IMG/VR virus record: IMGVR_UViG_3300009161_002770
Location: 1 to 35,348 of that record
Source: a virus
Reading direction: 5' to 3' (one strand)
DNA: 35,348 nt
A program made the position numbers and the translations under genes. Positions 4,860-35,348 of this stretch are shown piece after piece. The first letter of the stretch is position 1; the number at the start of each line of letters is the position of its first letter. Below the pieces are notes generated by a model that was not told where the DNA came from, did not search any database, and was given only the letters and a program-made list of their open reading frames with translations.

Positions 4860-4861
4860 GG

Positions 4862-5233: not shown

Positions 5234-5261
5234 TTTTTCTCCTTATTGTTTGTTGTTGGCG

Positions 5262-5334: not shown

Positions 5335-5335
5335 G

Positions 5336-5409: not shown

Positions 5410-5415
5410 CCTCGC

Positions 5416-8510: not shown

Positions 8511-8870
8511 TTACATCGCCGCCATGTAGATAGCGAGGCGATTAACAAATGCGTCATCGCACTTGGTTAGCGCGTTGAGCACCTTGTTGCGGTAGTCATC
8601 CTCATCGCCCTTGTAGTACGACGAGCTGATGAAGCGACCGCCCTGTGTGTTGTCGTGAACAAAGCGGGCAATCTGGTGGAGCTGCTTGCCCTGAAGCGTT
8701 CCGACTTTGGTTGCCAGCTGGATGCGTGGGTCAACCTTTGAGTTCTCAACTGCTTCAAGCGATGCTGCCTGAGCGGCTGCGATGATGGCTCCAACTGCCG
8801 TGAGCGCACCGATTGCGGTGACTTTGGCAACGCTGGACAAACGTGATGTGGTGCTTTCTTGCTTGGACAT
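8511..8870 (-). CDS. Hypothetical protein with N-terminal membrane segment
   Basis: 119 residues. An Ala-rich hydrophobic segment (VAKVTAIGALTAVGAIIAAA, about 14-33) follows a short polar N-terminus and fits a single membrane helix. The rest (about 45-119) is soluble and helical, ending in LAIYMAAM. AAGGAG precedes the ATG by seven bases. With the 55-residue membrane protein upstream and the AAA ATPase downstream it forms a possible functional group. Function unknown. Confidence 0.7.
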   Translation of the reverse strand: MSKQESTTSRLSSVAKVTAIGALTAVGAIIAAAQAASLEAVENSKVDPRIQLATKVGTLQGKQLHQIARFVHDNTQGGRFISSSYYKGDEDDYRNKVLNALTKCDDAFVNRLAIYMAAM

Positions 8871-8892
8871 CTTGTTCTCCTTGATGGTTGTT

Positions 8893-8931
8893 TTGTGGAA
8901 GCGAGCCTTTTAACCTCATGCTCAGGAAGTG
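8893..8931 (-). repeat. Leader repeat, copy 1 (pair with 9430-9468)
   Basis: 39-base element that recurs at 9430-9468 with 34 of 39 bases identical; all five differences are transitions. Each copy lies in the leader of a small leftward gene. On the minus strand it contains TGAG/CTCG (CGAG/CTCG in the other copy) around an A-rich loop, and at its 5' end CACTTCCT, which resembles the 3' tail of 16S rRNA. Confidence 0.65.
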
Positions 8932-8938
8932 TTGCTGG

Positions 8939-9106
8939 TTACTTCTTGGCGCTGTTGAGGGATGCCTCAATAGCCTTATGGTCAACTTCATCAAAGATGC
9001 GACCATAAATGAGCTCGGTACCCTTGCGGACACCGTGAAGAGCAAGTCCTCCAACTACGAGAACTGCGGTCTTTGCAACGAACACTCCAGCTTTGCTTGC
9101 TAACAT
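8939..9106 (-). CDS. Small single-pass membrane protein
   Basis: 55 residues, starting MLASKAGVFVAKTAVLVVGG and ending NSAKK. A hydrophobic stretch at about 7-24 should span the membrane, followed by a charged tail. An unusually strong SD, AAGGAGAT, sits six bases before the ATG at 9106. The coding frame is uninterrupted and codons match the neighbours. Nothing recognised by family. Its leader holds three stem-loops (9140-9247). Confidence 0.7.
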   Translation of the reverse strand: MLASKAGVFVAKTAVLVVGGLALHGVRKGTELIYGRIFDEVDHKAIEASLNSAKK

Positions 9107-9139
9107 GTCTATCTCCTTCTTGTTTGGTTGATGAAATGA

Positions 9140-9247
9140 CTAAGCGGGAGCCATCACCACTTGTATGGTGACAACTCCCGCTTAGGGGTGGGTTAGTCAA
9201 ACGCAAGTAAAGCTAACCCGTTCTTACCGACTCGTGGGCGGTAAGAA
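9140..9247 (-). other. Three successive stem-loops in a leader
   Basis: Inverted repeats CTAAGCGGGAG/CTCCCGCTTAG (9140-9185, with an inner TCACCA/TGGTGA), GGGTTAG/CTAACCC (9190-9219) and TTCTTACCG/CGGTAAGAA (9221-9247) fill the 149 bases between two small genes. The first stem sequence is identical to part of the stem at 9654-9703. No T-run follows it on the minus strand. Confidence 0.6.
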
Positions 9248-9255
9248 ATTTGATG

Positions 9256-9408
9256 TTACTTGTCTTGCTTTGCAGAGTCAATCCGAGTCTGTGCCTTGGA
9301 TGTCAGTGACTCGGCTCGCTTGGTGAAAACCTTGGCAATAGCCAGGTTGAGCTTGGCCTCGTTCGCGTTGATCTGCGCACGAGCTAGATCTATTTGTTGC
9401 TGGTTCAT
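9256..9408 (-). CDS. Small helical protein, hypothetical
   Basis: 50 residues, MNQQQIDLARAQINANEAKL at the start and DSAKQDK at the end. Ala/Lys/Gln-rich with leucine spacing that suggests one long amphipathic helix. AAAGGAG lies before the ATG at 9408. No family recognised. The leader contains the second copy of the 39-base repeat, whose CACCTCCT could pair with this SD. Confidence 0.6.
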   Translation of the reverse strand: MNQQQIDLARAQINANEAKLNLAIAKVFTKRAESLTSKAQTRIDSAKQDK

Positions 9409-9429
9409 CTCTTTCTCCTTTGTGTTGGG

Positions 9430-9468
9430 TTGTGGAAACGAGCCTTTTAGCCTCGTACTCAGGAGGTG
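9430..9468 (-). repeat. Leader repeat, copy 2 (pair with 8893-8931)
   Basis: Second copy of the 39-base element. On the minus strand it begins CACCTCCTGAG, of which CACCTCCT is identical to the 3' end of 16S rRNA and thus can pair with the SD of the gene starting at 9408. It also contains ACGAG/CTCGT around an A-rich loop. Confidence 0.65.
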
Positions 9469-9482
9469 AAATTTGCTACAAC

Positions 9483-9626
9483 TTAGGAATAGCCTTCGTC
9501 GTCAGTAGCAACAGGATCAGCGTCATCTTCTTCAACGCCTTCTTCGTAGCAATCTACGCACATGTCGTTATCGTAGATTGGTAGGAATTTATCGCACCAC
9601 CCGCATATCTTGATGTAGTTCTCCAT
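9483..9626 (-). CDS. Small zinc-knuckle protein
   Basis: 47 residues, starting MENYIKICGWCDKFLP. CxxC at residues 8-11 and CxxC at 23-26 (CVDC) make a four-Cys zinc knuckle, followed by a very acidic tail (EEGVEEDDADP). AAAGGAG precedes the ATG at 9626. Function unknown; small zinc-ribbon proteins of this kind are common in actinophages. Confidence 0.7.
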   Translation of the reverse strand: MENYIKICGWCDKFLPIYDNDMCVDCYEEGVEEDDADPVATDDEGYS

Positions 9627-9645
9627 TTGCTCTCCTTTTGGGTTG

Positions 9646-9703
9646 GAAAAGCACTAAGCGGGAGTCAAAGACGACGGGGGATGCGCCTAAGACTCCCGCT
9701 TAG
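9646..9703 (-). terminator. Terminator-like hairpin in the 9626 gene leader
   Basis: A 13-bp perfect stem (CTAAGCGGGAGTC with GACTCCCGCTTAG) is followed on the minus strand by TGCTTTT, a short T-tract. It lies between promoter 9796-9824 and the SD of the gene at 9626, so it may terminate or attenuate the transcript. The 24-base loop contains one of two copies of ACGACGGGGGATGCG. Confidence 0.6.
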
Positions 9704-9735
9704 CGGGTCCCAATGTACGACGGGGGATGCGTACA
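9671..9735 (-). repeat. 15-base direct repeat displayed in two hairpin loops
   Basis: ACGACGGGGGATGCG occurs at 9671-9685 and 9717-9731. The first copy is in the loop of the terminator-like stem. The second is part of a small perfect hairpin (TGTACG/CGTACA, 9714-9735). On the leftward RNA both present a CATCCCCCGT loop, so a shared binding partner is possible. Confidence 0.6.
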
Positions 9736-9795
9736 AAGGGAGTTTTTGGGTCACGCGAGGCCTGTATTCGGACATGGCTACCGCGCTATGGCTAA

Positions 9796-9824
9796 ATTAT
9801 AGCACCTTTTGCTGGCTAGTGCAA
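9796..9824 (-). promoter_or_regulatory. Sigma-70-type promoter, leftward
   Basis: On the minus strand TTGCAC, 17 bases, TATAAT. The -35 box lies directly after the stop codon of the gene ending at 9825. The transcript would start near 9789 and have a leader of about 160 bases before the ATG at 9626. Confidence 0.75.
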
Positions 9825-10307
9825 CTACCAACTAGAGGCGTATGTGTAGTGCTGGTAGAAGTTACCCTTGGGGGCTGTTGGGTCCATTTCGGCCAGCAGA
9901 TCCTCGAGTTCCTTCTTTGTTCTATCTAGGACACTCCAGTAGCGTTCGTCTAAGTCCGCTGAGCCAAAGAAGAGGCCAGACGCAGGCGGCAGTAAGGTCA
10001 AAGCCCTTTCAGCGCCTAACGTTAAGCTTTTGTCTTTAGCGTCCAGTATGACTGTAACTACGGATAAAAGGGAACTTATATCGTCTCTATTTACGAGATA
10101 CGTGCCACAGTTATCCTCACCATTCTGGACGTTATTAACGAACCATCTGTGAATCTGGTTTGCTTTTCGCCAGTAGATCATGCTCTCAGTGATGCTCTTA
10201 ACCCGATCATTCTTGATGTTAACGGGCATCACAGCGGCATCTCTAGCATCTTCGTTAGAGGTGTCGTAGAACATGGTCACGCGGTCTAGGTACATATCAA
10301 GGCCCAT
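9825..10307 (-). CDS. Conserved phage protein, MGLDMYL family
   Basis: 160 residues. The N-terminus MGLDMYLDRV and the region YWRKANQIHRWFVNNV with DNCGTYLV are the signature of a small family widespread in phages, with no known function as far as I know. Acidic and soluble. Its ATG overlaps the stop of the upstream gene by one base (TAATG), so translation is coupled. Confidence 0.75.
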   Translation of the reverse strand: MGLDMYLDRVTMFYDTSNEDARDAAVMPVNIKNDRVKSITESMIYWRKANQIHRWFVNNVQNGEDNCGTYLVNRDDISSLLSVVTVILDAKDKSLTLGAERALTLLPPASGLFFGSADLDERYWSVLDRTKKELEDLLAEMDPTAPKGNFYQHYTYASSW

Positions 10308-10663
10308 TAGACGACCTCAACATCTACTGGCTGATCCCAAACTGACTCGTATTCGCTCTCGTCCCAAGAGAACTCTTGAAACGCGCCTATTACGATGTGT
10401 GTGTCAGAAAGGGACATAACATGCTCAACAGCCTCGTCAGTGACTACTGGGATATCCCTGGCCGTTGGCAGCCACTCGTTCTCAAAGTCCAGCTTGGCTA
10501 AGGTGACGTTGTTGCAGAGCGTGTTCAGGCTGTTTCCTTCTGGATCTGAGTAAACCAAGACTGGATTGTCTGGGTTGGCTCCACTCTTAATCAGCGAGTC
10601 ACACAGGCTCGCTAGATCTCTTAGCGTCAAGACGCTTGTTGGTACTTGGATATCTTCTGACAT
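10307..10663 (-). CDS. Hypothetical acidic protein
   Basis: 118 residues starting MSEDIQVPTSVLTLRDLASL. Contains NPDNPVLVYSDPEGN, a pattern seen in small phage proteins of unknown function. Strongly acidic. AAGGAGATAGCA precedes the ATG at 10663. It is the first gene after the leader RNA and terminator at 10686-10845, and is coupled to the MGLDMYL gene. Confidence 0.7.
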   Translation of the reverse strand: MSEDIQVPTSVLTLRDLASLCDSLIKSGANPDNPVLVYSDPEGNSLNTLCNNVTLAKLDFENEWLPTARDIPVVTDEAVEHVMSLSDTHIVIGAFQEFSWDESEYESVWDQPVDVEVV

Positions 10664-10685
10664 TGCTATCTCCTTATTTTGGGCA

Positions 10686-10718
10686 ACAAAAAAGGCCCCA
10701 GAACTGTTCTCTGGAGCC
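10686..10718 (-). terminator. Rho-independent terminator/attenuator ahead of the 10663 gene
   Basis: On the minus strand GGCTCCAGA, a 7-base loop, TCTGGGGCC (nine pairs, one G-T), then six T residues. It ends about 20 bases before the start codon at 10663 and lies downstream of promoter 10852-10880. It could end a small RNA or act as an attenuator for the two genes beyond. Confidence 0.85.
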
Positions 10719-10845
10719 TGCTTTAAATCAACCTAGTTCGGAAGTGTCTCCCGGCGACCGGGCCTTCTGACCGTATTTCGGTTGAAACGTGTTAGCTACG
10801 TGCTTACCAGAAGCTTCACTAACCGTGTGCGAGTTCCCTCGCTTG
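10719..10845 (-). ncRNA. Candidate structured leader or small RNA
   Basis: A 127-base gene-free stretch between a consensus promoter and a strong terminator, transcribed leftward. The RNA could form GCGAG-GGAA-CTCGC (a GNRA-type loop), CCCGG-TCG-CCGGG, a GTTAG/CTAAC pairing and a CTTCTG/CAGAAG pairing that encloses others. No open frame of note. I do not recognise an RNA family. A riboswitch-like attenuator and a free phage small RNA are both possible. Confidence 0.55.
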
Positions 10846-10851
10846 GTGATA

Positions 10852-10880
10852 AATATACCGGATTGGGAACTACTTGTCAA
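10852..10880 (-). promoter_or_regulatory. Consensus sigma-70-type promoter, leftward
   Basis: On the minus strand TTGACA, 17 bases, TATATT. The -35 box is inside the last codons (Leu-Asp-Lys) of the gene ending at 10870. Transcription would start near 10845 and pass through the structured stretch into the terminator at 10686-10718. Confidence 0.8.
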
Positions 10881-11607
10881 GTTCTAACCGGAAAATATCC
10901 TTCATAGACATACTTTTTAACCGTAATTCATTGCGTAACTCGGCTAAATCTTCCTTAGAAATGATTTCTTCGGGTATATCCATGCCATCTTTGCTGTCAA
11001 TCAGATCCAAAATCATTGGATTAATTGACTCTTGGGTGTGCTGATACATCATAATTCCCAGCAACATTTCCCTGTTCATGCATAGTTCACCGTGCAAATC
11101 TCTAACATCTTTGAGATTAAGCACTGAAACTAGGACGTCAAAGCTGAGATCAAACGCTGAGGCTTTACGCTCGCGCTCAGGGTCAATCTCAACCTCTCCA
11201 GTAATTGTACTACGAATGTCCGAAGAATAAAAGACAGGCTTGGAATTCCTGTTGTAAACCTCGCAAACGATGGATTCGCATACGTTTCGGTCTCCTTCTT
11301 CGAACTTTGCTTGCAACTCATCGCCAAAGGTGTCTCCCTCGCGGAAGGTATTCCTGCCAATAGCGATGAAATCAATGTCGTCCAGTGAAGTACCAGACTC
11401 CTTGATGAATATGCCTAACGCTCCCTTAATGGCCGGGATCATAAACTCGCTAGGCAGTTCGTCTCTAGCATCTTGCAATCTAGTCATATAAGGCATGACT
11501 TGACCGTGCATACTGACAACTATCAGCGGGAGATTCAGGTGCAACTTATCCTTAGCGATATCTACAAATACATCGTTAATTTTCTCTTTGATGATCAGTT
11601 CTTTCAT
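10870..11607 (-). CDS. Hypothetical protein
   Basis: 245 residues starting MKELIIKEKINDVFVDIAKD. Mixed alpha/beta, acidic, with no membrane segment and no motif I recognise. AAGGAG precedes the ATG at 11607. Its last codons double as the -35 box of the next promoter. It follows 11609-12070 with a one-base gap in one leftward unit (10870-12294). Confidence 0.7.
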   Translation of the reverse strand: MKELIIKEKINDVFVDIAKDKLHLNLPLIVVSMHGQVMPYMTRLQDARDELPSEFMIPAIKGALGIFIKESGTSLDDIDFIAIGRNTFREGDTFGDELQAKFEEGDRNVCESIVCEVYNRNSKPVFYSSDIRSTITGEVEIDPERERKASAFDLSFDVLVSVLNLKDVRDLHGELCMNREMLLGIMMYQHTQESINPMILDLIDSKDGMDIPEEIISKEDLAELRNELRLKSMSMKDIFRLELDK

Positions 11608-22300: not shown

Positions 22301-23079
22301 CCAGCCTAAAAGATTTGATAAAGGCAGTAAATGAAGAAAAGCCAGTCACCGTAAGACACGAGAGCTGGCTTGAAAAGAATGCTGATCCTACTTATTCCCC
22401 TGAAGCGATTGCTTTCGCTGCAGCCGAACTAGCCGGAACAGAGAACTCAAACAGCGGTCCTAAAGTTCGGATGTTCAGGGCTTCTGGAATGAACGGCTGT
22501 ATGCGCCAGCGCATATTCCAAAGAAGCGGTATGGAGCAACAAACTCCTCCTAACGCTAGAACAGCAAATATCTTCCACACAGGTAACTTCATCCACCTGA
22601 AGTGGCAAATGGCTGGCATTACCGAAGGATGGCTAGCACAGCCAGAAGTTGCTATGGAGTGCGAAGACCTACAGCTTCGAGGTCACACCGATGGAATCCT
22701 GTTTGACGGATCACTCCTAGAGATCAAGTCAATCAACTCCAGAGGTTTTGACCGTGTTTACAAAGATGGGGTAAAAGAAGATCACAAGATGCAGGCGACT
22801 GCGTATCTGTATATGCAGGATAAAAAGTCCATATCGTTTATTTACGAGAATAAAGACAACCAAGAGTGGTACGAGATTAGATACACGAGAAATAGCAAAG
22901 ATGAAGACGAAATGCTGAAGCAGATGAAAACTTTGGTTCAGTATTGGGAGGATGACAGATTGCCTCGTATTCTCTCTTCTTGCGAAAGAAAAGAAGGAAC
23001 TAACTACAATTACTGCCCATTTAAGAAAGAATGCGCTGCTTTGCACGCAGTAGAAGACGAGGGATTCACGCATGGCTAG
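22297..23079 (+). CDS. Cas4/RecB-like exonuclease
   Basis: 260 residues. PD-(D/E)xK nuclease: RGHTDGILFDGSLLEIKSIN carries Asp132, Glu142 and Lys144. A Gln-containing helix follows (HKMQATAYLYM). One Cys in FRASGMNGCMRQRIF (Cys68) and three near the C-terminus (Cys229, Cys240, Cys246) match the four Cys that bind an iron-sulfur cluster in Cas4 and AddB. No other CRISPR genes or array are present, so this is the phage recombination type. AGGAG precedes the ATG; it overlaps the HNH gene by four bases. Confidence 0.85.
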   Translation: MTSLKDLIKAVNEEKPVTVRHESWLEKNADPTYSPEAIAFAAAELAGTENSNSGPKVRMFRASGMNGCMRQRIFQRSGMEQQTPPNARTANIFHTGNFIHLKWQMAGITEGWLAQPEVAMECEDLQLRGHTDGILFDGSLLEIKSINSRGFDRVYKDGVKEDHKMQATAYLYMQDKKSISFIYENKDNQEWYEIRYTRNSKDEDEMLKQMKTLVQYWEDDRLPRILSSCERKEGTNYNYCPFKKECAALHAVEDEGFTHG

Positions 23080-23473
23080 TGTAAAGATAAGAAGATCAAC
23101 GGACAGGGATGTTCAGTCTTCCAGGAGCCTTATAGCGGTTCCGGTAGGGGAAGGACTGCCCGCAGTGCAGGAACTGTGGGACGAAATAGCCACATATATG
23201 GATATTCTTCTGGGAAGAATAGAGCCTCCGGTAGATTCTCCTTACCTTTTGCTGATGGAGGTATCTACCGCCTATTACGCTAGAGGACTCGAAATAGACG
23301 CTCTAATCCACCATGAAGAGCGCGAAATGAGAGTATTGAGGGGTAGCCCGCACTATAAGTTTAGGACCGGAGAGCTGAGGGACTTTATTGAACTTGCGAA
23401 GAAGACTGCCGAACTAGGCAGCAGAAGGCTGACTCAAGAGCAAATCCTTGCTGAGCAGCGTCGTTCTATCTAA
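23072..23473 (+). CDS. Hypothetical helical protein
   Basis: 133 residues starting MASVKIRRSTDRDVQSSRSL. Predicted all-helical with charged C-terminal part (RDFIELAKKTAELGSRRLTQ). No motif recognised. Overlaps the nuclease gene by eight bases and is followed nine bases later by the Rpf-like gene, so it sits at the junction of replication and lysis/structural genes. Confidence 0.65.
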   Translation: MASVKIRRSTDRDVQSSRSLIAVPVGEGLPAVQELWDEIATYMDILLGRIEPPVDSPYLLLMEVSTAYYARGLEIDALIHHEEREMRVLRGSPHYKFRTGELRDFIELAKKTAELGSRRLTQEQILAEQRRSI

Positions 23474-23481
23474 GAGGATCA

Positions 23482-24000
23482 ATGAAGCGTTTAGTGATAC
23501 TGACGGTTGTAATTTTCTCAATAATCATCGGAATGATAGTTTGGGAAAACACAAGAACAGAACAGACCGCTCCTAAGCCACAGGCAAAGGTAGCCAAGCA
23601 AGAGAAGAAGACAAGTAGAAGCAAGCAGCGAGTTATAAAGAATAAAGTTATCCGCAAGACTGTGCACAAATCTGTGCATAAGACTAAACACAAAAAGCAC
23701 GTATCTAGGTCTTATAAGAGAAAGCCGGGCTTAGATCTAAGGAACCGCGAACTATGGATGCTTATCCACAAGTGCGAAGGAAGCTGGACAGACAACAGCA
23801 ATTTCGAGGGTGGACTACAGTTTCTCCACTCCACTTGGGTAAGCGCAGGAGGCAGAGCATTTGCTGAGCACGCCTATCAGGCTACTCCAGAGGAGCAGAT
23901 CACCGTTGCTAACTGGTACAGCAGTGGAGGCTCCTGGTTGGCTCCTTGGCCCACCTGTGGACGTAGAGCGGCTAAGGTACTAGGGTTGGAGTTTCCATGA
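23482..24000 (+). CDS. Rpf-like muralytic protein with membrane anchor
   Basis: 172 residues. Cleaves peptidoglycan by analogy with resuscitation-promoting factors, whose fold is lysozyme/transglycosylase-like. Residues 3-20 form a signal or anchor helix; 30-82 are a long Lys/Arg/His-rich linker able to bind wall polymers or DNA. The Rpf domain is at 88-170: LWMLIHKCEGSW with the catalytic Glu at 99, NFEGGLQFLHSTWVSAGG, then PWPTCGRRA. Cys98 and Cys159 can form the usual disulfide. Rpf domains are typical of actinobacteria and their phages. It could be a lysin or a virion-associated entry enzyme. AGAGGATCA precedes the ATG. Confidence 0.85.
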   Translation: MKRLVILTVVIFSIIIGMIVWENTRTEQTAPKPQAKVAKQEKKTSRSKQRVIKNKVIRKTVHKSVHKTKHKKHVSRSYKRKPGLDLRNRELWMLIHKCEGSWTDNSNFEGGLQFLHSTWVSAGGRAFAEHAYQATPEEQITVANWYSSGGSWLAPWPTCGRRAAKVLGLEFP

Positions 24001-24194
24001 CACCAGAAGAGCATTTAGACAGAGCAGAGAAGCTGGCTAGTTCGGCTTCCGAAATGTCAATACGAGACCCGTTGCACAAGGGCGTGGTTATGAACCTTAG
24101 AATGGCTATGATCCACGCGTCTTTGGCAGCAGCAGGGTTCGCAAAAGAAAACCTTAAACTATTAGAAGAACTAAGAGAAACGGAAAACAAATGA
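23997..24194 (+). CDS. Hypothetical small helical protein
   Basis: 65 residues, MTPEEHLDRAEKLASSASEM at the start, all-helical. It resembles short actinophage proteins with a MTPEEHL-type N-terminus whose role is not known. The ATG overlaps the previous stop (ATGA) and the end overlaps the next gene by four bases. Confidence 0.7.
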   Translation: MTPEEHLDRAEKLASSASEMSIRDPLHKGVVMNLRMAMIHASLAAAGFAKENLKLLEELRETENK

Positions 24195-24502
24195 ATCCCA
24201 CATTGTTCCAATTTTGCGGTTACATTACCCACCTTGACGCCAAGACTGGCCGAATTGAGATGGCTCTAGACCTTGGCTTCAACAGGTCAGAATCTAGAAC
24301 TTTTAAGATGCACGGACTCGGCAAACTCACCCTTGATCAAACCGCGCTTGCTTCTAAGTGGCTACAGTCTAATAACGGAGCGATGGTTCGGGTAGAAACC
24401 CGTAAGATTGGCAACGATGAGTACAGTGCCGTTGTCTATGGTCTTTCTGGGCCAATGAAGGGCCTGGCTCTTAACGACCAGATTAGTCTCGCTAGCGTCT
24501 GA
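24191..24502 (+). CDS. Hypothetical beta-rich protein, possibly SNase-like without active site
   Basis: 103 residues. IEMALDLGFNRSESRTFKMHGL recalls the staphylococcal-nuclease OB fold (a DLGF strand, then RLYGI). The Asp, Arg and Glu residues needed for catalysis are not in place, so I do not call a nuclease. Overlaps the upstream gene by four bases. Fold suggestion is weak. Confidence 0.55.
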   Translation: MNPTLFQFCGYITHLDAKTGRIEMALDLGFNRSESRTFKMHGLGKLTLDQTALASKWLQSNNGAMVRVETRKIGNDEYSAVVYGLSGPMKGLALNDQISLASV

Positions 24503-24555
24503 CAGGACTTAGACGATAATCTCAAAGTGACGGATTATTAGCGGAGGTCGCTCAT

Positions 24556-26403
24556 ATGGCACGCCCAAACTTGGTAGCAGCTATTGATTTTGCTTACTTT
24601 GGCACTCAGTACGAAGCCGGAGATGCATTCCCTACTGTGGGTCTTAACGACCTTGCCGTAAAGCGCTTGCTAGACAAGGGATACATAACTGCCGAGGGAA
24701 GCGGTGGTGGAGGCGTAACCGGCCCCACCGGCCCCACCGGTCCAACGGGATTAGACTTTGAAGTCTCCTCTCAATACCGCGCGGGTACAGGACAGGTTGT
24801 CAAATTTGACGATCCGACAAAACAGTCTATTATCGCCGCCCCAGATGCAACAGATAGTTACCCAACTGCCCAAAGATTAGTCGTGCAGGGTCCAAACGGA
24901 TTCCTCAACAGTGATGGAGAGGGCGGCGATGTTTACCTGTGGGCTGGTAACGGAGCTGCTACCAACGGATCTGGCGGTGACATTAAAGCTGATGGTGGCC
25001 AAGGATCTGGATCGGGCGAGGGTGGGAGCGTAAAGGTTAGAGGTGGCTATTCCCCATCGGGAACCGGAGGATTTGTGCAGGTAATCTCTGGATCCTCAAC
25101 CAACGGAGATGGCGGATATTTAGAGTTAAAATCCGGGTATTCAGACTCAGCTAGCGGTGGATCAGTAGAGATTCACTCCGGTCACAGCTCCGGTGGCGAC
25201 GGTGGAGACGTTAATATATACACCGGGTTTGGGACCAACGGAAACGCTGGAGACATTAATATATACGGTGGCCAGGGAACCACTGGAGACGGCGGAACGG
25301 TCACAATTTCCGGAGGAGACACCACTGGTGGTACTGCGGGAGACGTCCAACTACAAACTTACTCTGGCGGAAACATTATTCTTGTTGGTGACGGCGGAGA
25401 GTTCCTTAACGACGCAACTGATCCTGATAACCAGATTGCAACTATGGGAGACATAGCAGCTGGACCAACAGGACCAACCGGCGCTACTGGAGCAACTGGA
25501 GACCCAGGAACGGCTGGAGCCACTGGCGCTACTGGATCAACTGGAGCAACTGGATCAACAGGCACAACCGGAACGGCTGGAGCAACGGGTGCGACAGGAG
25601 CAACTGGAGCAACCGGTGCGACAGGAGCAACTGGAGCAACCGGATCGAACGGAAATAATTACCCAGGCGAGCCAACAGTTGATACTTGGACATTTAGAAC
25701 TGCGACCGGATCAACCGGATTGGCTTCTGGCGATATTAGATTCGATAGCGCAACTGTGTCCGGGGCTCCAGGAACCGGAATTGGAAACCTATACGTACAC
25801 GCAAACGCAAGTAGCGCAACAGATAGAGCAACATTCTTTACTAACGCCGCTATTGGCGACATCATCACCGTTAGATCAACCACAACGCCGACTTCTTTCT
25901 GGAAGTTCAAAGTAGTAGCTGCCGCTTCATCAGCGAGCTCGATAGTTACAGTCCCAGTAGTTGCAGTATCTGGCCCAGCCGTAGCAGGGTTTGCGGATAC
26001 AACAGTGACCGTAGCCCTGTACCAAAGCATTGGGCACAAATCAATATCGTTCTCTATTACTGGAATACTTTTAGTTGCCGATGGTTCAATGGACCACAAG
26101 ACTAAGTGGTACAACGATACTGGGGAACCAATTGTTATTACAAAGGTTAGAGCCGCTTTTGCAACCGCTCCAGTAACGACTGCTACAACCTTAGACGTAT
26201 TCAAAAACGGATCAGCAGGAGCGACAGTGTTATCCGCAGTGGTTTCAGTTGCTGCCGCTGCCACCACCGCTACACAAACAGCGTCTTCTACGCGAACGGC
26301 TACTTATCTAATATCTGGAACTGACTATTTGACGATGAAGGTTCCTTCTGTTGGCTCTGGTGGTGGCGGTAGAGAACTAGTTCTGACGGTTTGGTACGTT
26401 TAA
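24556..26403 (+). CDS. Tail fibre with collagen-like and Gly-rich repeats
   Basis: 615 residues. Likely trimeric host-binding fibre. Order: an N-terminal anchor (about 1-50), a short collagen run ([10 protein letters not shown] near 57-66), and a domain of repeated Gly-rich strands at about 115-285 ([32 protein letters not shown]) that suits a beta-helix or stacked beta fibre. A long Gly-x-y collagen run (about 302-370; GATGATGATG) follows, then a C-terminal head of about 240 residues with beta-rich, Thr/Ala-rich sequence. GCGGAGG precedes the ATG. Repetitive DNA here is prone to length change. Downstream genes start directly after its stop. Confidence 0.85.
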
Positions 26404-28633: not shown

Positions 28634-29125
28634 ATGTTGTTACGGTTGCCCCCTGTATGGGGAATAGACCTAGGCGCTAGGTCATGGCATGCTGCGCGGA
28701 TAGAAGACGGTCAACACACCGTCTATTCCTGCGTTATTAAGCCTAAAAAGACTGAAGAGCGTGCAAAGATACTTAGAACGCTTAGTGTTGAGCTAGCCAC
28801 CCTGTTAGATGGAGCCGATCCGGTATACATCGAAGAGCCTGTTGTAGCCGGGGTCAGGAACCTAAGAACCTTCCTAATGCTAGCCCAGACATCTGGAGCC
28901 CTTATGTCGCGCATCAGCGGTCCAGTCACCCTTGTGCCTGTATCCAGTTGGAAGAAGGAAGTCTGCGGTCATGGTGGCCTTGCTAAGCCCGATATAGCCA
29001 TATGGCTGAAGGTACACCAGCCTATGTTCTTTGATAACTGCTTAGATGACCAGAATAAGATAGACGCTACTTGTATCTCAATGTATGGGATTACCCAGGA
29101 ATACATTAAGGCTGCTAATGCCTGA
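28634..29125 (+). CDS. RuvC-like Holliday junction resolvase
   Basis: 163 residues. RNase H-fold nuclease that resolves branched DNA before packaging. VWGIDLGARSWHAA carries the first Asp (Asp12), VYIEEPVVAG the Glu (67/68), and LDDQNKIDATCIS the last acidic residues (138-144), in the RuvC order. Also contains WKKEVCGHGGLAKPD, similar to the RuvC K.. loop. GGAAAC precedes the ATG. Next to a terminase-like gene, which suits a role in clearing DNA for packaging. Confidence 0.8.
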   Translation: MLLRLPPVWGIDLGARSWHAARIEDGQHTVYSCVIKPKKTEERAKILRTLSVELATLLDGADPVYIEEPVVAGVRNLRTFLMLAQTSGALMSRISGPVTLVPVSSWKKEVCGHGGLAKPDIAIWLKVHQPMFFDNCLDDQNKIDATCISMYGITQEYIKAANA

Positions 29126-29573
29126 TCAAGATAAAGCGTGGGTATCAGCAGAGGTATTGGTCTGGTTAGACGATGAATTAGATATATTTGAGGAAGGTGA
29201 TGACGAGCCACGAATAGCCATACTGGGAGACTGGTATCCAGAGTGGCATGCTAAAGCCGCCTGCTTGGGAGAGTATGAAGCTGCGGATAACTTCTTTTAT
29301 GGTCAAGATGAGCGGGGAATAAGACCCAGCCTAAGCGCGGGACAGATTAAAAAGGCTAGGGAGTTCTGCGCTAGATGTGAAGTAGTTACTGACTGCCTAC
29401 GCACAGCCATCTCCAGTAGAGAGAAATACGGAGTATGGGGCGGGACAACAGGCAGGTTCCGCAGACAACTATTTGTAATGATAGAGGAAGGGTACTTAGA
29501 CCTAGAGGGAGCAATCAAGGAATGCCTGACTATGCTCCTAGGATCTAAGACGGGTAAAAAGTATGAGCTCTGA
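29118..29573 (+). CDS. whiB: WhiB-family transcriptional regulator
   Basis: 151 residues from the ATG at 29118, which overlaps the stop of the RuvC-like gene by eight bases. An iron-sulfur protein that binds the host sigma factor and alters transcription. Cys49, Cys84, Cys87 and Cys93 (CARCEVVTDC) bind the cluster; GVWGGTT (105-111) is the family turn, followed by basic RFRRQ. The N-terminal 40 residues are an acidic addition. WhiB proteins are restricted to actinobacteria and their phages, so this gene is the best host marker in the window. Confidence 0.93.
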   Translation: MPDQDKAWVSAEVLVWLDDELDIFEEGDDEPRIAILGDWYPEWHAKAACLGEYEAADNFFYGQDERGIRPSLSAGQIKKAREFCARCEVVTDCLRTAISSREKYGVWGGTTGRFRRQLFVMIEEGYLDLEGAIKECLTMLLGSKTGKKYEL

Positions 29574-30000
29574 CGAACTAGAAATACCAGATGAATCAGC
29601 CAAGGCTAGGGAAGCCTATGGTCTGCACCTAATGGGCCTTGAGTGGTCCGCTATTGCTGAGCGCTTGGGATATAGCAGCGCTGACTCAGCCAGAATAACC
29701 ACTAGGCGGGTATTAGAAAGAGCAGCCCTCAATCTAGACCAAGAGCGCCTAGATGAGATGCTGGAAACTGAATTAGAGCGCCTTAATCTATTACAGGCTG
29801 CTGCCTGGCCTATGGCCCTAGCTGGGGATACTAGAAGCATAGATATCGTCCTAAAAGTGATGAATACACGTCATAAACTGCTTGGATTTGATAAGCGGGA
29901 TGAAAAGATCACCAACCAGACGCTGGTGGTTAGTGGGGAGAATTTCATTGAGATATTACAGCGGGCCGTAGATAACCGAGATAACAAATCCCTAGGTTGA
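29563..30000 (+). CDS. HTH protein, possible small terminase subunit
   Basis: 145 residues. Residues 15-55 (YGLHLMGLEWSAIAERLGYS then ARITTRRVLERA) form a helix-turn-helix. The rest is a helical bundle ending in SIDIVLKVMNTRHKLLGFDK, which is close to small terminase and related HTH proteins of actinophages (ALAGD..AID.VL.IM.RR..LLG). Position before the probable head genes supports a packaging role. A regulatory HTH protein remains possible. Overlaps the WhiB gene by 11 bases. Confidence 0.6.
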   Translation: MSSDELEIPDESAKAREAYGLHLMGLEWSAIAERLGYSSADSARITTRRVLERAALNLDQERLDEMLETELERLNLLQAAAWPMALAGDTRSIDIVLKVMNTRHKLLGFDKRDEKITNQTLVVSGENFIEILQRAVDNRDNKSLG

Positions 30001-30053: not shown

Positions 30054-30482
30054 ATGCAGGACGCATTTGGTGTAGACCGTTCAGATATTTCCAAGGCAGC
30101 AATGCCGGGAGCCATTGAAAGTTCTGTTAAGTACTTCCAGGGCAGAAGAGCAGCAGCCACTTCAGCTGCGCGCGCTGGATCGCTAAGAAGCGCTGGCGGC
30201 CCTTCTCGAGTTTTGGGATCTAAGAGGCTTGGAATGCGCCGCACACGTAATGCCGCAAAACTAGAAAGCAAGATGGATACTATGCGGACAGCCCCTTACG
30301 GCACAAAGAATGCAACGTGGATAGACACCTTGGCCGGAGCCAGTAAAAAGCAGGCTAAGGACTGGAGTTACGTTACCTCTCCAAAGGGCTATGAAAGAGC
30401 TAACTGGAAGGCAGCGAAGAATGCCCTGAAGGCTAACTCAAGAAAGTCCCAAGGACCCACCACTCCAAGCCCATTTAACTAG
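30054..30482 (+). CDS. DAFGV-tagged basic protein 1
   Basis: 142 residues beginning MQDAFGVDRSDISKAAMPG. The first 14 residues match the N-terminal peptide shared by eight successive genes. The body is very basic and rich in Ala, Arg, Lys, Ser and Gly (ARAGSLRSAGG, KNALKANSRKSQ), with no membrane segment. DNA binding inside the head or interaction with scaffold would fit the charge, but this is inference. First gene of the cassette. Confidence 0.7.
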   Translation: MQDAFGVDRSDISKAAMPGAIESSVKYFQGRRAAATSAARAGSLRSAGGPSRVLGSKRLGMRRTRNAAKLESKMDTMRTAPYGTKNATWIDTLAGASKKQAKDWSYVTSPKGYERANWKAAKNALKANSRKSQGPTTPSPFN

Positions 30483-30496
30483 ACAGGGATTAAAAA

Positions 30497-32062
30497 ATGT
30501 TAGATGCGTTTGGCGTAGAACGTTCAGAAATTAGCAAGTCAATCAGTCCTAATCAACTAGCGGCGCTTAGCCGTATAGCTGGGACTGAAGGCGCAGGTGC
30601 TAAGTACGCGACCAAGAAGCTAGCTGCAGCAGCTTCTGGAAAGAAGTCTGCCGCCAGATCTCCTGCGCAAACTGCACGATGGGGTAACGTTTCGCGGAAG
30701 GGACAGAAAGAAGCAGCTAAATCAAGATCTGCTTTGTCTAGCGTTGCTAGGGAGCCAAGAGGGGGAAGCATAGGTTCTATGGAAGCATCAGCCGCAAAGG
30801 CTATTAGAAACAATAGGCCGCTATCACAGAAGTTTAGAGAAGCCGCTCAGCCAAGAGGGCAAAAGGTCCTCCAAGCTGTTGGAACAGGCAGTAGAGCCGT
30901 AGGTACCAGAGTTCGCGCAGTTGGATCAAGCGTTGGTTCAGGAACCGCTAGGGCCGCTAGAGCAGTAGGATCGGGAACTGCTAGAGCCACCAGAGCAGTT
31001 GGATCTGGAACGGCCAGAGCGGGCAGAACATTACGCGCAAGCATGACTAGAACTCCCAGAGCAGCCACTCCTACTACAGCAGCCGCCAAAGCACCCGCTG
31101 CAGCAACTGGAACAGAAGCTGGAACAGCAACGGTTAAGAATAAATCTAGATTTGGTAGAAACGCTGCCCTTATTGGTGGTGGAGCCGCAGTCGGAGCCGG
31201 TGGCATGGCGTATAGCGTAGACAGGAATAACCAGATGATGAGCAAGTCAGCATTCGGCGTAACCCATGAGGTTACTAAAGGACTTCTTCCTAAAATACCG
31301 CCGCAATTTATGGAGGGCGTTAACCCTAACTCTCCAAGGGGAGTAGCGATGCGATTAAAGATTGGCGCGGATAGGGCGACCAACAAGTCAGACACTATTC
31401 GCCGAATTAAATACGCTGATGGGAAAAAAGCAAAAGCTAAAGTTGTTTCCCGCGCCGTCTCAGAAGGAATGGACGATTTAAGACAGGGCTCTAGAAGAAT
31501 TGCTGGAAATTACTACACCAGGACTAAAAGCAAATACGTGCCTTCTGGTCACAGCACCCACACAATGGAGTCCAACGGAGGTCTTATATTCAAGCCACGC
31601 AAAATTGATTTCCGCAACACAGGCGAAGCTGTTATTCCACCTAATTACGAAAAGTTGTATGACTCAGGAATTAAGCTAACCACTGGCGCTAAGGTAGTTG
31701 GCGGATCTGCTGTTGCAGCAGGAGTAGGCGGTGGAGCATACGCATATGACAAGAAGAAGAATGTTTCTAAGTCAGCATTTGGTGTAGACCACTATGTATC
31801 AAAGGGTATATCTGCTGGTGTTATTAAACTCCCGACTCAGATACATTACCCGCGCATGGGAAACCCAACTAAGGCTGTAAACGCTTTTAAGACAGGTGCT
31901 ACAAGAGCCAAGACGGGTGGATCAGGAGTAGCTGGTCAGACCAAGAGGGGCATTGTAGGAGCGTTTAAGAGTTCCCCAGGAACCGTTATGGCTGCAGGAG
32001 CTGTAGGGGCTGGTGGAATAGGAGCCGCTGGATACGGCATGAATAGAAATAAGAGATACTAA
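30497..32062 (+). CDS. DAFGV-tagged protein 2, three-unit polyprotein-like
   Basis: 521 residues. Begins MLDAFGVERSEISKS. The peptide recurs inside at SKSAFGVTHEVTKG (249-262) and SKSAFGVDHYVSKG (424-437). Just before each internal copy lies a Gly/Ala-rich hydrophobic helix (LIGGGAAVGAGGMAYS; VVGGSAVAAGVGGGAYAY) and a charged turn. A third such helix (TVMAAGAVGAGGIGAAGYG) precedes the C-terminus NRNKRY. So the protein is three units of peptide, basic body and glycine-zipper helix. A low-complexity stretch (about 130-200; VGSGTARA repeats) lies in unit 1. The stop overlaps the next ATG (TAATG). Confidence 0.75.
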   Translation: MLDAFGVERSEISKSISPNQLAALSRIAGTEGAGAKYATKKLAAAASGKKSAARSPAQTARWGNVSRKGQKEAAKSRSALSSVAREPRGGSIGSMEASAAKAIRNNRPLSQKFREAAQPRGQKVLQAVGTGSRAVGTRVRAVGSSVGSGTARAARAVGSGTARATRAVGSGTARAGRTLRASMTRTPRAATPTTAAAKAPAAATGTEAGTATVKNKSRFGRNAALIGGGAAVGAGGMAYSVDRNNQMMSKSAFGVTHEVTKGLLPKIPPQFMEGVNPNSPRGVAMRLKIGADRATNKSDTIRRIKYADGKKAKAKVVSRAVSEGMDDLRQGSRRIAGNYYTRTKSKYVPSGHSTHTMESNGGLIFKPRKIDFRNTGEAVIPPNYEKLYDSGIKLTTGAKVVGGSAVAAGVGGGAYAYDKKKNVSKSAFGVDHYVSKGISAGVIKLPTQIHYPRMGNPTKAVNAFKTGATRAKTGGSGVAGQTKRGIVGAFKSSPGTVMAAGAVGAGGIGAAGYGMNRNKRY

Positions 32063-32307
32063 TGCAAGACGCATTCGGAGTAGAGAGATCCGATATTTCT
32101 AAAGGAATAAAGCCTGCTCACATTAACGCGATGGTTAGACATGGACAGCGAACTGGAAACGATGAACTGGTAGCTCGAGCATTGGCAGCTATGAACGGTA
32201 GGGCTGGATCTACAAGTAGGGGCTTATATTGGCGCAGTCAGACCACAAAGCCAGCAGCAGCTAAGAAAAAGGCTAAGGGCCTTCCTTACGTTAGGGGATA
32301 TAACTAA
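32062..32307 (+). CDS. DAFGV-tagged small basic protein 3
   Basis: 81 residues beginning MQDAFGVERSDISKGIKPA. After the shared peptide come a helix (INAMVRHGQRTGNDELVARA) and a basic tail (TTKPAAAKKKAKG). No membrane helix. ATG overlaps the stop of the polyprotein-like gene and its own stop overlaps the next ATG (TAATG in both cases), so the genes are joined with no spacer. Confidence 0.7.
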   Translation: MQDAFGVERSDISKGIKPAHINAMVRHGQRTGNDELVARALAAMNGRAGSTSRGLYWRSQTTKPAAAKKKAKGLPYVRGYN

Positions 32308-32603
32308 TGAAAGACGCATTTGGAGTAGAAGTCTCCAAGGCAATGTTTCCCGGAGCTGCGGCTAGAGTAATCCCAAAAACTTTAAAGTCACTTAAGCCCA
32401 GCCCTTTAGTTGCTTCTAAAGTTAGGCCACCCACTACTGGAATTAAACCTATGACTCCAACGGGTCCTAAGTCAATTAAGCGCAGCCCTTATTCGTCACC
32501 CACTACTGGAATTAAACCTATGACTCCAACGGGTCCTAGAACACCGAGTGGCACCCCAATGACAAACAATGCACGCTTCGCGTCACGAATAAACCCCAGA
32601 TAG
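32307..32603 (+). CDS. DAFGV-tagged Pro/Thr-rich protein 4
   Basis: 98 residues beginning MKDAFGVEVSKAMFPG, a shorter form of the peptide without the RSD insert. Proline-rich and basic, probably disordered. An internal repeat TTGIKPMTPTGP occurs twice, encoded by an exact 42-base repeat. Confidence 0.7.
   Translation: MKDAFGVEVSKAMFPGAAARVIPKTLKSLKPSPLVASKVRPPTTGIKPMTPTGPKSIKRSPYSSPTTGIKPMTPTGPRTPSGTPMTNNARFASRINPR
32428..32538 (+). repeat. Exact 42-base direct repeat inside protein 4
   Basis: 32428-32469 and 32497-32538 are identical and code for PTTGIKPMTPTGP in the same frame, 69 bases apart. Identity at synonymous positions shows a recent duplication. Confidence 0.85.
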
Positions 32604-32610
32604 GTAACTA

Positions 32611-32988
32611 ATGATTGACGCATTTGGAGTAGAGATCTCTAAGGGTATGCCTTCATATCTACGCGGAGCTGTAAAAGCATCTGATGCTGCCGCCAAGGGA
32701 ACCAAGGGCATGGAAATGATGTTCGCGCGTCAAAAGGCGTTACCTGGGTCTATTGGTCGTGCAACTGAAGCAACTATGTGGACTGGCTATAGATCAGCAG
32801 CTCGCACGCAACCAGCAGGAATGTACCAAGCCAATAGAATAGGGAGATACGGTGCGGGAAAAAAGGTTTCCAGCCCTGCTTCTATTAAATACTCTATTAA
32901 ATCGGGTTCTAAGGCAAAGCAAAGAGGCCTTAAATTGCAAAGTACATTAACACCATCTCCTAAGACTAGACCTCTAAGGAACATCTAA
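32611..32988 (+). CDS. DAFGV-tagged basic protein 5
   Basis: 125 residues beginning MIDAFGVEISKGMPS. Basic, Ala/Lys/Arg-rich body (SIKYSIKSGSKAKQRGLKL). Ends in PKTRPLRNI, the same C-terminus as protein 6, and the underlying bases are identical. Ends TAATG with the next gene. Confidence 0.7.
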   Translation: MIDAFGVEISKGMPSYLRGAVKASDAAAKGTKGMEMMFARQKALPGSIGRATEATMWTGYRSAARTQPAGMYQANRIGRYGAGKKVSSPASIKYSIKSGSKAKQRGLKLQSTLTPSPKTRPLRNI

Positions 32989-33298
32989 TGCAAGATGCAT
33001 TCGGTATAGATCGCACTGATATCTCTAAGGGCTTGCCTTCGCCCGCTAAAACATATCTTAAGCTTCGCTATCGCAATATGGGAGACTTCTCTAAACCACA
33101 GGTTAAAAAGCCTAAAAGTAGATATATTAATTTGAAGATGGAATCCAATAAGCACGGTAAGATTGCGCGAGATTACGGCGTACCAGGTATAGGAGAAGAG
33201 CACATCGCTCGAGGTAAATGGTGGAAAGATCTTCGCGACCAAGAATATAGTTCTGCGCTACCAGCTCCTAAGACTAGACCTCTAAGGAACATCTAATG
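32957..33298 (+). repeat. Identical 34-base gene-junction repeat
   Basis: 32957-32990 and 33265-33298 are the same: the last codons (PKTRPLRNI), the stop and the ATG of the next gene. Together with the shared N-terminal peptide they bracket gene 6 completely, as if it were a module inserted or duplicated by homologous exchange at junctions. Confidence 0.85.
32988..33296 (+). CDS. DAFGV-tagged basic protein 6
   Basis: 102 residues beginning MQDAFGIDRTDISKGLPS, the most divergent form of the peptide (Ile for Val, Thr for Ser). Very basic body with many Lys and Arg (KPQVKKPKSRYINLKMESNK). The C-terminus PKTRPLRNI equals that of protein 5 although the bodies differ, so the gene is a mosaic. No known domain. 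Confidence 0.7.
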   Translation: MQDAFGIDRTDISKGLPSPAKTYLKLRYRNMGDFSKPQVKKPKSRYINLKMESNKHGKIARDYGVPGIGEEHIARGKWWKDLRDQEYSSALPAPKTRPLRNI

Positions 33299-34807
33299 AT
33301 TGACGCATTTGGTGTTGAGATAAGCAAGGGCGTTATTCAGCGTACCTACTATGCTGCCCAAGCATCTTCAGCCAACCCAAATGCGGGAGTAAGAGATAAC
33401 GCTAAATTCATCTATAACGCTAGATTAAAGCGGGTAAATAGAGGAAATGTATCTAAGGCTGGAGGTATTCCAACCAAGCTACTTCCTGCTGCCGAAAAGC
33501 TTATAGAATCTCGGGCATTTAAAAGACTTCAGCAAAGTAACATGCACAACAAGATCACAGCGCGTCGCCAAAAGCAGATGGATAAGTGGCTACCTGAAGG
33601 GCAAGGAATGCCCTTAAAAGATGGTGGCGAACCAGCGGCATTTGTTGGGGAAAGAAAGCTTTATAAGCCGGGAGAGTTTTCTGAAACAGTGCGCCCCTCT
33701 ATAGAAAAAGATCCCAAACTACAAGAAATCGAAAATTTGGGACATAGAAGACGCCAAGCAGCGCTAAAGCTTGGCGAAGTAGCCGGTTTAAGAATTGGCG
33801 AATTTAAAGTTTCTAATGCCCAAGGGGTGAAGGGCGCTGAAGCTTTCGCTACCATTTGGCCAACTGGGAGAATAAGACCAGAAGGATTAATCGCCGAAAA
33901 AGGTGACAGGATATCTGGCCCAGCCTTACTTTCTCACTTCAATAGAAAAAACAAAGAAATAGAATCCCCGGGGATGCTTCTAAATGCAGGCATTTACTCA
34001 TCTTCCCCTAAAGAGGCAACTGGTGCAAGAGTTTGGCGTACTAAATCTCTTGATGCTAGATATATGCCAGGCAGAGGAATGGGAAGCTCTGATAAAGAAA
34101 TATTTTATAGTCGTAAAAAGCACGCTGCCGACGTAAAAAGAAATAATAGAGATAAAAATGGGAAAAAATCTGTTATTAACGCCAGAAATTTCACGTCTGG
34201 AAAAGAATTTATAACCCCTGATGGGAAAATAGTTTCCCAAAAAGATATAGACACTATGCACCACATGTCATATAAAAAAGCAATGGCCACTAGAAATCCG
34301 CATGCTGATCCCAATCCTAGTGGAAAACTTAGACTTGGCATACACGGAAGAAAATTAACGGAAGAAGAAATTAAAGGTCTTCGGGTGCACTCTATGAAGG
34401 CTAGAGTTGGCCTGGCACGTCCAAGCGATACGACTTACACGGTTAAGGTAAAAAATCCAGAAACTGGAGTAATTGAACGAAAGAAAGTTGGCTGGACTCC
34501 AGCAATGCACGAATACATGTCAAATATGTCTTGGAATGGGTATGTTAAGGGAAGAACTCCTTTTCTTACCAAGACCAAGAGAGCTACTGTCGGGGCTAGC
34601 GTTGCCGGAGCGGGTTATATAGGGGCCAATAGGGACAGCACCCCGCGTAAGGAATGGACCGAAAACGAGCACCCAAGAGGCTACGGAGGAGAGTTTAGAG
34701 TGAAGGGATACAAGAGCGCTTACAAGTCTGTTTTGGATCGCCAGCGAAAGGTGTCTAAGTCCTCTGAGGGCTCTAATCAGATAAGCTCAAACCTATGGTC
34801 GAGTTAA
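33296..34807 (+). CDS. DAFGV-tagged large protein 7
   Basis: 503 residues beginning MIDAFGVEISKGVIQ. Basic throughout. A Gly/Ala helix (ATVGASVAGAGYIGA) lies near residue 430, as in protein 2. Next is KEWTENEHPRGYGGEFRVKG, resembling the short HPR..GGEF/GRF stretches of phage minor head proteins. The C-terminus has KVSKSSEGSN, which may be a decayed internal copy of the SKSAFGV peptide. The middle (about 170-400) has mixed structure with no enzyme motif I can name. Head-associated role is inferred. Confidence 0.7.
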   Translation: MIDAFGVEISKGVIQRTYYAAQASSANPNAGVRDNAKFIYNARLKRVNRGNVSKAGGIPTKLLPAAEKLIESRAFKRLQQSNMHNKITARRQKQMDKWLPEGQGMPLKDGGEPAAFVGERKLYKPGEFSETVRPSIEKDPKLQEIENLGHRRRQAALKLGEVAGLRIGEFKVSNAQGVKGAEAFATIWPTGRIRPEGLIAEKGDRISGPALLSHFNRKNKEIESPGMLLNAGIYSSSPKEATGARVWRTKSLDARYMPGRGMGSSDKEIFYSRKKHAADVKRNNRDKNGKKSVINARNFTSGKEFITPDGKIVSQKDIDTMHHMSYKKAMATRNPHADPNPSGKLRLGIHGRKLTEEEIKGLRVHSMKARVGLARPSDTTYTVKVKNPETGVIERKKVGWTPAMHEYMSNMSWNGYVKGRTPFLTKTKRATVGASVAGAGYIGANRDSTPRKEWTENEHPRGYGGEFRVKGYKSAYKSVLDRQRKVSKSSEGSNQISSNLWSS

Positions 34808-34817
34808 AGGACGCGAA

Positions 34818-35348
34818 ATGAAAGACGCATTTGGTGTAGAGCGTATTTCTAAGGGCGCGAATCCGGCAAATCCAGCGCAAATAGTAGGACAGTTAAAATT
34901 ATTTCCGCTTAAAGGCATGACAAGAGCAACAAGAGCAAAAAGGCTCCCATATAAGCAGCCTAAGTTTAGACGAAGCCAAGAAAAACAAATAAAAGGGCAA
35001 ACATATTTATCCGTTCCAAGGGGCCGTCAATCCGGTGGTAAAGAATTTAAAATAAATTCATCCGGGCCAGGAAGAAAGACGTCTAATGCTTTATCTCCAG
35101 AGGGGCAACAAAAACTTGCAAACAAACTAAAAGAACTGGATAGAAAATATGCCGGTCGTTTTGCTTCACAGGGGCCAAAAGTATCAAGAAACGACCCCTC
35201 GGACACGACTGGTGGCCAGGGAGCGGGCGCCAGAAAAGCAGTAAACGTAATTAGATTGTCTGGAAGGCAAAGAGTCGGCAAATCTGACGCATTTGGCGTT
35301 GAGGTATCTAAAGGCGTGCCTCATTTCCCTGACTGGATGCACGCTAGG
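34818..35348 (+). CDS. DAFGV-tagged basic protein 8, 3' end off window
   Basis: 177 codons visible, beginning MKDAFGVERISKGANP, with no stop before the window end. Highly basic (TRATRAKRLPYKQPKFRRSQ). An internal copy of the peptide, KSDAFGVEVSKGVPHF, appears at 155-170, so this is a second in-frame fusion of cassette units. Nothing else recognised. A GGACGCGAA stretch before the ATG is a weak SD. Confidence 0.7.
   Translation, partial: MKDAFGVERISKGANPANPAQIVGQLKLFPLKGMTRATRAKRLPYKQPKFRRSQEKQIKGQTYLSVPRGRQSGGKEFKINSSGPGRKTSNALSPEGQQKLANKLKELDRKYAGRFASQGPKVSRNDPSDTTGGQGAGARKAVNVIRLSGRQRVGKSDAFGVEVSKGVPHFPDWMHAR

Follow-up and report, generated by a model that had tools for sequence, protein, structure and literature searches.

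A short peptide that most likely marks dozens of unrelated small proteins for loading into the heads of uncultured actinobacterial viruses

In phage T4, proteins reach the head by way of a capsid-targeting sequence (CTS), for which ten N-terminal residues suffice and in which targeting and processing reside in separate residues (PMC9026906). The T4 protease gp21 cuts both the scaffold and the cargo (IPI, IPII, IPIII and Alt) at L/I-X-E (PMC9026906). In phiKZ and SPN3US, many packaged proteins are matured at one short motif, which in phiKZ is S/A-X-E (PMC9026906, PMC10052503).

Here, we describe a peptide from a lineage of uncultured actinobacterial viruses that, judging from sequence, most likely marks dozens of unrelated small proteins for loading into the head and is later cut off. 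It was met in a 35,348-base virus record from IMG/VR, which stops within a cassette of tagged genes; this whole stretch is called the window. As with the T4 CTS, a short N-terminal peptide is common to unrelated basic proteins, and it ends in a residue pattern that is repeated in the scaffold; here, the pattern is read from sequence and the cleavage is predicted. T4 cargo genes are fast-changing (PMC9026906), which is counted as a further likeness to the tagged genes. Unlike the T4 system, the tags end in (I/V)(S/A/E)K rather than L/I-X-E, Pfam, PHROG and NCBIfam searches find no homology to IPI, IPII, IPIII or Alt, and the predicted protease is Peptidase_S78_2 (XkdF) rather than gp21. Many genes carry the tag, polyprotein-like ORFs among them, and it can also stand internally or at the C-terminus; the phages concerned are actinophages rather than T4-like phages. 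Because sequence, predicted cut residue, protease family and positional freedom all differ, the tag is not filed here as a member of the T4 CTS.

The propeptides of phiKZ and SPN3US also place one short motif on many proteins; their motif, however, ends in Glu, and these phages are jumbo myoviruses. To our knowledge, they are not a single conserved short tag on all cargo. Encapsulin cargo-loading peptides are short linear motifs that bring unrelated cargo into an HK97-fold shell; they are usually C-terminal, are uncut by a head protease, and serve cellular compartments. Most copies of the tag, in contrast, are N-terminal, and the shell is a phage capsid (Phage_cap_E). The tag would be a ready-made means of delivery to the head, a kind for which phage T4 is, as far as we know, the main example so far.

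The tag and the proteins that carry it

All eight ORFs between positions 30054 and 35348 begin with M-x-DAFG(V/I)(E/D), followed by zero to four residues and (I/V)SK (Table 1). They lie back to back, with spacings of -1 to 14 bases. An earlier note on this DNA had claimed that eight adjacent proteins share one N-terminal peptide and that their bodies are nearly all very basic. Both claims are confirmed: isoelectric points run from 10.1 to 11.9, and N-terminal (D/S)AFG is found in 8 of 133 real window ORFs, all consecutive, against 2 of 26,600 residue-shuffled ORFs, which excludes chance. The tag codons differ synonymously (GCA/GCG, TTT/TTC, GGT/GGA/GGC, GTA/GTT) under a constant peptide; selection, therefore, acts on the peptide. 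Three internal copies, two in ORF 2 and one in ORF 8, had been overlooked.

Table 1. Tagged genes, internal tags and neighbouring features (window positions unless another contig is named)
Feature	Position	Strand	Remarks
WhiB-family regulator	29085..29573	+	PF02467, E=3.9e-17
Gene directly 5' of cassette	29563..30000	+	small-terminase-like by position only; PHROG 645
Tagged ORF 1	30054..30482	+	142 aa; tag MQDAFGVDRSDISK, then A; pI 10.9
Tagged ORF 2	30497..32062	+	521 aa; tag MLDAFGVERSEISK, then S; 2 more tags inside
Internal tag SAFGVTHEVTK (in ORF 2)	31247..31279	+	MMSK just before
Internal tag SAFGVDHYVSK (in ORF 2)	31772..31804	+	NVSK just before
Tagged ORF 3	32062..32307	+	81 aa; tag MQDAFGVERSDISK, then G
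Tagged ORF 4	32307..32603	+	98 aa; tag MKDAFGVEVSK, then A
Tagged ORF 5	32611..32988	+	125 aa; tag MIDAFGVEISK, then G; C-terminus ..SPKTRPLRNI
Tagged ORF 6	32988..33296	+	102 aa; tag MQDAFGIDRTDISK, then G; C-terminus ..APKTRPLRNI
Tagged ORF 7	33296..34807	+	503 aa; tag MIDAFGVEISK, then G
Tagged ORF 8	34818..35348	+	at least 177 aa, runs off contig end; tag MKDAFGVERISK, then G
Internal tag DAFGVEVSK (in ORF 8)	35286..35312	+	RVGKS before; opens second module
XkdF protease (Peptidase_S78_2, above Pfam cut-off)	G011 527-1597		E=1.8e-18
XkdF protease (Peptidase_S78_2)	G010 4690-5892		E=7e-17
XkdF protease (Peptidase_S78_2)	G015 8838-11072		E=1.9e-13

ORF 2 is built, polyprotein-like, of three modules, with Gly/Ala-rich runs preceding each internal tag. 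In the version of ORF 8 found in contigs L003/G001, module 1 is gone and tag 1 is fused to body 2; a whole module was lost in G001 through recombination between two tags. A near-identical 39-bp DNA repeat (window 32952-32990 and 33260-33298) is the reason that ORFs 5 and 6 both end in PKTRPLRNI ahead of the next start codon. The body of ORF 7 is kin to one tagged protein of contig L178, and has zero matches among PDB sequences. Searches of the window's proteins against Pfam, PHROG and NCBIfam gave nothing above cut-off for the tag or for ORF 1.

Searching viral contigs for exact matches to the N-terminal pattern identified about 16 true relatives, several of which bear three to eight tags. With K-SAFGVxH and M-x-SAFGVxH as added patterns, the IMG/VR scans amount to about 148 non-redundant tag-bearing proteins on more than 50 contigs. 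The search beyond the window that the earlier note had suggested thus finds the peptide widely in IMG/VR, and in none of 50,697 phage records (INPHARED) under three peptide queries, whose lone matches (E of 4 and 7) are chance. The pattern DAFGVER retrieves only unrelated proteins from GTDB bacterial genomes, for example DAFGVDRAAAVCRELTK, and nothing relevant to the peptide was found in the literature.

The commoner form of the tag across relatives is M-x-SAFGV(E/D)HG..(I/V)SK. Over 152 distinct N-terminal copies, a set with a few false members in which A, F and G are fixed by the search pattern, the first position is S (.73) or D (.26). The core continues with V (.92), then E (.53) or D (.44), then H (.69) or R (.17), and the end reads (I.53/V.35)-(S.77/E.11/A.09)-K-(A.34/G.26). 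The bodies of the 148 retained proteins fall, after removal of one false group, into some 84 groups between which similarity is undetectable; 77 representative proteins can be aligned at the tag only, where A, F and G are invariant and V and K nearly so.

Besides the N-terminal majority there are internal copies, and C-terminal ones of the form SAFG(V/I)xH-stop that are without the ISK part. Internal copies are usually flanked by (V/I/M)(S/A/G)K before and (I/V)(S/A)K after, mostly with Lys immediately upstream (VSK, VAK, VGK or GKS), and a Lys stands at most six residues upstream in 37 of the 46 internal and C-terminal copies. When the other proteins of these phages were searched with a tag profile, one diverged tag was added, SPFGVDHGEISK in G025. 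The sequence MADAFGVEKEHIG (L013, L015, L017 and others) belongs to an unrelated conserved protein and was dropped from the set. Variant tags occur in contig L334, where two genes (4650-5105 and 9070-9591) carry SVWGVDHG..(I/V)SK, and in L330/L332/L333, as SAWGIEHGDAVSK; the core of the tag may drift as a set within one phage. At G007 2352-2786 (L046), an untagged gene that looks Dps/ferritin-like by eye sits in the middle of a tag cassette.

The tagged bodies carry a median net charge of +10.5 per 100 residues. Gly/Ala-rich uncharged runs are commoner among tagged proteins (67 of 148) than among untagged ones (26 of 962; p = 3e-44). The untagged cases listed include tape measures, XkdF proteins, the insert in the scaffold and a large ORF neighbouring the portal; two tagged proteins match the Pfam Gly-zipper. 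Such runs would fit ejected, membrane-active proteins. Family searches with the 77 representatives returned scattered matches only, none of them to internal head proteins. One tagged body carries DUF6321 (PF19846, 3.1e-19), a domain that aligns with the C-termini of several larger PHROG families. Finding the tag on a body known from other phage protein families means, in turn, that the bodies differ in origin.

Genes around the tag

WhiB genes are used as an actinophage marker (PMC6802176, PMC10202952), and the one in the window thus identifies the phage as an actinophage. The gene directly 5' of the cassette had been called terminase-like; its identity as a small terminase could not be confirmed, since its PHROG 645 match is labelled 'RNase E', a Pfam search gave zero matches, and its product does not resemble the protein annotated as small terminase in Arthrobacter phage Kovu. 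Elsewhere in the window, a 1177-aa ORF (1-3534) is probably the tape measure from its size and position, with no Pfam or PHROG match; a collagen-repeat protein (24556-26403) is tail-fibre-like (Pfam 4.4e-7; PHROG tail fibre); and two tRNAs, Arg(tct) and Met(cat), stand side by side on the minus strand (5261-5409). Protease, scaffold and capsid genes are all absent from the window alone.

In the near-complete contigs G010, G015, G018, G019 and G020, tags are confined to structural gene blocks, where they follow the small-terminase-like gene and lie around the genes for portal, protease, scaffold, capsid and connectors; in these five contigs no tag lies near helicase, polymerase or other replication genes. 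A few tagged genes lie 3' of the tape-measure gene, that is, outside the head block proper. The head block encodes a Portal_Mu portal, a MuF-like protein, a Peptidase_S78_2 (XkdF) protease, a scaffold-like acidic protein and a Phage_cap_E capsid protein. Here, "scaffold" is a putative name, given from position, composition and a weak Peptidase_S78 match at the C-terminus. The G010 portal is 44-48% identical to those of Arthrobacter phages Kovu, Ottawa and Salgado and contig MT835491, and its capsid protein is 41-42% identical to those of the three phages; the head modules of Kovu, Ottawa and MT835491 are without the tag.

Over 16 kb, contig G001 and the window are 99.9% identical, and an exact 123-bp overlap of ends links G001 to G011, a contig from the same sample. 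G011 carries the cassette on with more tagged genes, then lysis-like, tail-like and terminase-like genes, a portal gene (1.2e-38), a MuF gene and an XkdF gene, and stops before the scaffold. The two contigs are joined through this overlap only, and by it the window's phage very likely carries protease and portal past the contig end. The earlier note had placed the cassette before structural genes outside the window and advised looking for a head protease in the adjoining sequence. An XkdF gene does lie beside the tags, in relatives and in the joined G011, and in relatives the tagged genes sit in structural, mostly head, blocks only.

On G011, the ORF at 23406-24596 (continuing L003 15606-16249) is a cargo polyprotein in which GMPRAARA modules recur; its final module has a HExxH metallopeptidase-like motif (IIEHEKIHAKN..EEARADA) and no Pfam match. 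The ORF at 22852-23409 is a tagged body with a stretch, NGHHRLAAHKLLG, that looks ParB-like by eye and has no Pfam match.

The scaffold and the predicted cut site

A protease site of the form hydrophobic-small-Lys would be expected to be abundant in the scaffold and scarce in the stable parts of the head. The 13 scaffolds contain 106 hydrophobic-(S/A/G)-Lys triplets against 9.8 expected, an 11-fold enrichment whose pooled z-scores overstate independence because the scaffolds are homologous; the Arg version of the triplet occurs 10 times against 10.8 expected. Each scaffold has 7-9 sites against 0.5-0.9 expected. XkdF proteins have 22 against 8, the portal 0 against 11.7, the major capsid protein 7 against 15.6, and the tagged bodies, with the tag removed, 99 against 131; tape-measure proteins are also enriched, twofold. 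An unbiased scan of residue-class tripeptides in the scaffolds puts hydrophobic-small-Lys at the top and small-Lys-small second. The triplet holds 68% of scaffold lysines compared with 7.8% elsewhere, and a small residue follows it at 83% of scaffold sites and in 68% of tags, compared with 34% of other occurrences. Several of its lysines are invariant or near-invariant among divergent scaffolds. The end of the tag, ISK before A or G, is the same element as this dominant repeated triplet, as would be expected of a propeptide cleaved by a protease.

Related phages in which no tag was detected also have Lys-site-rich scaffolds. The site pattern is thus not tag-specific, and a strict coupling of tag and Lys-rich scaffold was rejected. 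In the scaffolds of Kovu, Ottawa and MT835491 the enrichment is not significant, and a search of phage records for scaffolds of this kind found none. About 11% of tags end in hydrophobic-Glu-Lys in place of hydrophobic-Ser/Ala-Lys. These ends, together with the C-terminal copies that have no SK downstream, mean that cleavage is not a universal companion of the tag.

The scaffolds also carry an element, KSAF(F/G), that is present in 9 of 13 of them and absent from all 991 other proteins without a tag; in a capsid-anchored set, 12 of 20 loci with the tag have it, and 0 of 34 without. It is followed by ..EELSK and A, an arrangement that resembles the tag. Since the tag profile scores the scaffold element below significance, kinship between the two, and with it a shared origin, is no more than suggestive. 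A strict co-evolution of tag and scaffold is unsupported: L334, with its SVWGVDHG tags, has a scaffold without the VW element. In a low-confidence structure model of the scaffold (pLDDT 62, pTM 0.24), VGKSAFF precedes the helical part, in a stretch that is itself modelled with low confidence.

At the KSAF site, the scaffolds of L314, L318, L319, L323, L349 and L049/G013 contain a basic, Gly/Ala-rich insert that resembles tagged cargo and includes a membrane-type run; in most of these scaffolds it is flanked by VGK/GK sites. These inserts are possibly cargo carried in cis. In the window's phage, two polyprotein junctions (KARGEIYK before GMPRAARA, and KARGEISK before SSVGAG) retain the K-terminated end and no longer have the AFG core.

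What the tag may do

The tag, the location of its genes, the protease gene and the site pattern shared with the scaffold are read directly from the sequences. The reading we prefer, with a probability of about 0.7, is that the peptide is a head-loading tag that the head protease trims, working as the T4 CTS does with an unrelated sequence. Capsid targeting, proposed in the earlier note, thus gains support from the structural-block location, the adjacent XkdF protease and the scaffold-like tag end, all seen in relatives.

Here, the core (D/S)AFG(V/I)(E/D)(H/R) would dock tagged proteins to a partner within the prohead, most likely the scaffold or a binder of its KSAF(F/G) element; docking may instead be to the portal or neck. 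The XkdF-type protease would cut after (I/V)SK, releasing the mature basic body in the head, and would also cleave the scaffold at many hydrophobic-small-Lys sites. The freed bodies would be packed with the DNA and probably ejected alongside it, and the Gly/Ala-rich membrane-type segment in nearly half of them suggests insertion into the host envelope. A bolder version, to which we give somewhat less than even odds, makes the tag a detached copy of the scaffold's docking-and-cut segment (K-SAF(F/G)...LSK before A), served by a Lys-specific head protease, common among uncultured actinophages and absent from cultured collections. Cargo would then travel by three interchangeable routes: within the scaffold polyprotein, as modules of cargo polyproteins, or as separate proteins tagged at either end.

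The tag might, of course, be a permanent docking peptide that is never cut, holding minor structural proteins to the portal, the neck, the inner face of the capsid or a decoration. C-terminal copies with no cut site downstream would suit this, as would the IEK/VDK ends of some tags, the mixing of tagged genes with head-tail connector genes and the position of some tagged genes after the tape measure. We consider it unlikely, because the ISK-small end of the tag is the dominant repeated element of the scaffold, and because the two polyprotein junctions retain the K-end without the AFG core. Nor is it probable, still less so in our view, that the tag sends proteins elsewhere in the infected cell (to a membrane, a replication compartment or a host protein), with the structural location reflecting late expression. 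Basic, Gly/Ala-rich, membrane-type bodies could indeed act at the host membrane, but replication and early genes are all without the tag, and the shared scaffold element and the cargo-like bodies inside scaffolds point to the prohead.

Short identical DNA does move between neighbours, as the 39-bp repeat shows, and inter-tag recombination deleted one module in G001. From this it could be argued that the genes are tandem duplicates with diverged bodies, their common start, kept by repeat recombination or for translation initiation, having no part in targeting. This is scarcely credible given that the codons vary while the peptide is constant, that the DUF6321 body indicates separate origins, and that each genome has the one tag scattered across several blocks. 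Internal and C-terminal copies would be useless for initiation, and the leader-peptide or initiation-region reading is rejected on their account.

If the head-loading reading is true, the tag is a searchable signature of head-packaged, probably injected proteins in a large group of environmental actinophages, and it supplies about 148 cargo candidates at once in genomes otherwise full of unknown genes. The principle of the T4 CTS would then reach an unrelated lineage, with another protease and a tag independent of terminus. We know of no cleavage specificity data for Peptidase_S78_2 (XkdF) head proteases; the rule predicted here for the family is a cut after hydrophobic-small-Lys, before a small residue. 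A tag functional at both ends would, further, be of practical use wherever proteins are to be loaded into phage heads. By eye, and short of significance by profile, the N-termini of several XkdF proteins (G010 4690, G019 44620, L176 and L265) themselves contain a tag-like prodomain stretch, (L)FG(D/G)xxD..EL(I/V)(S/A)K.
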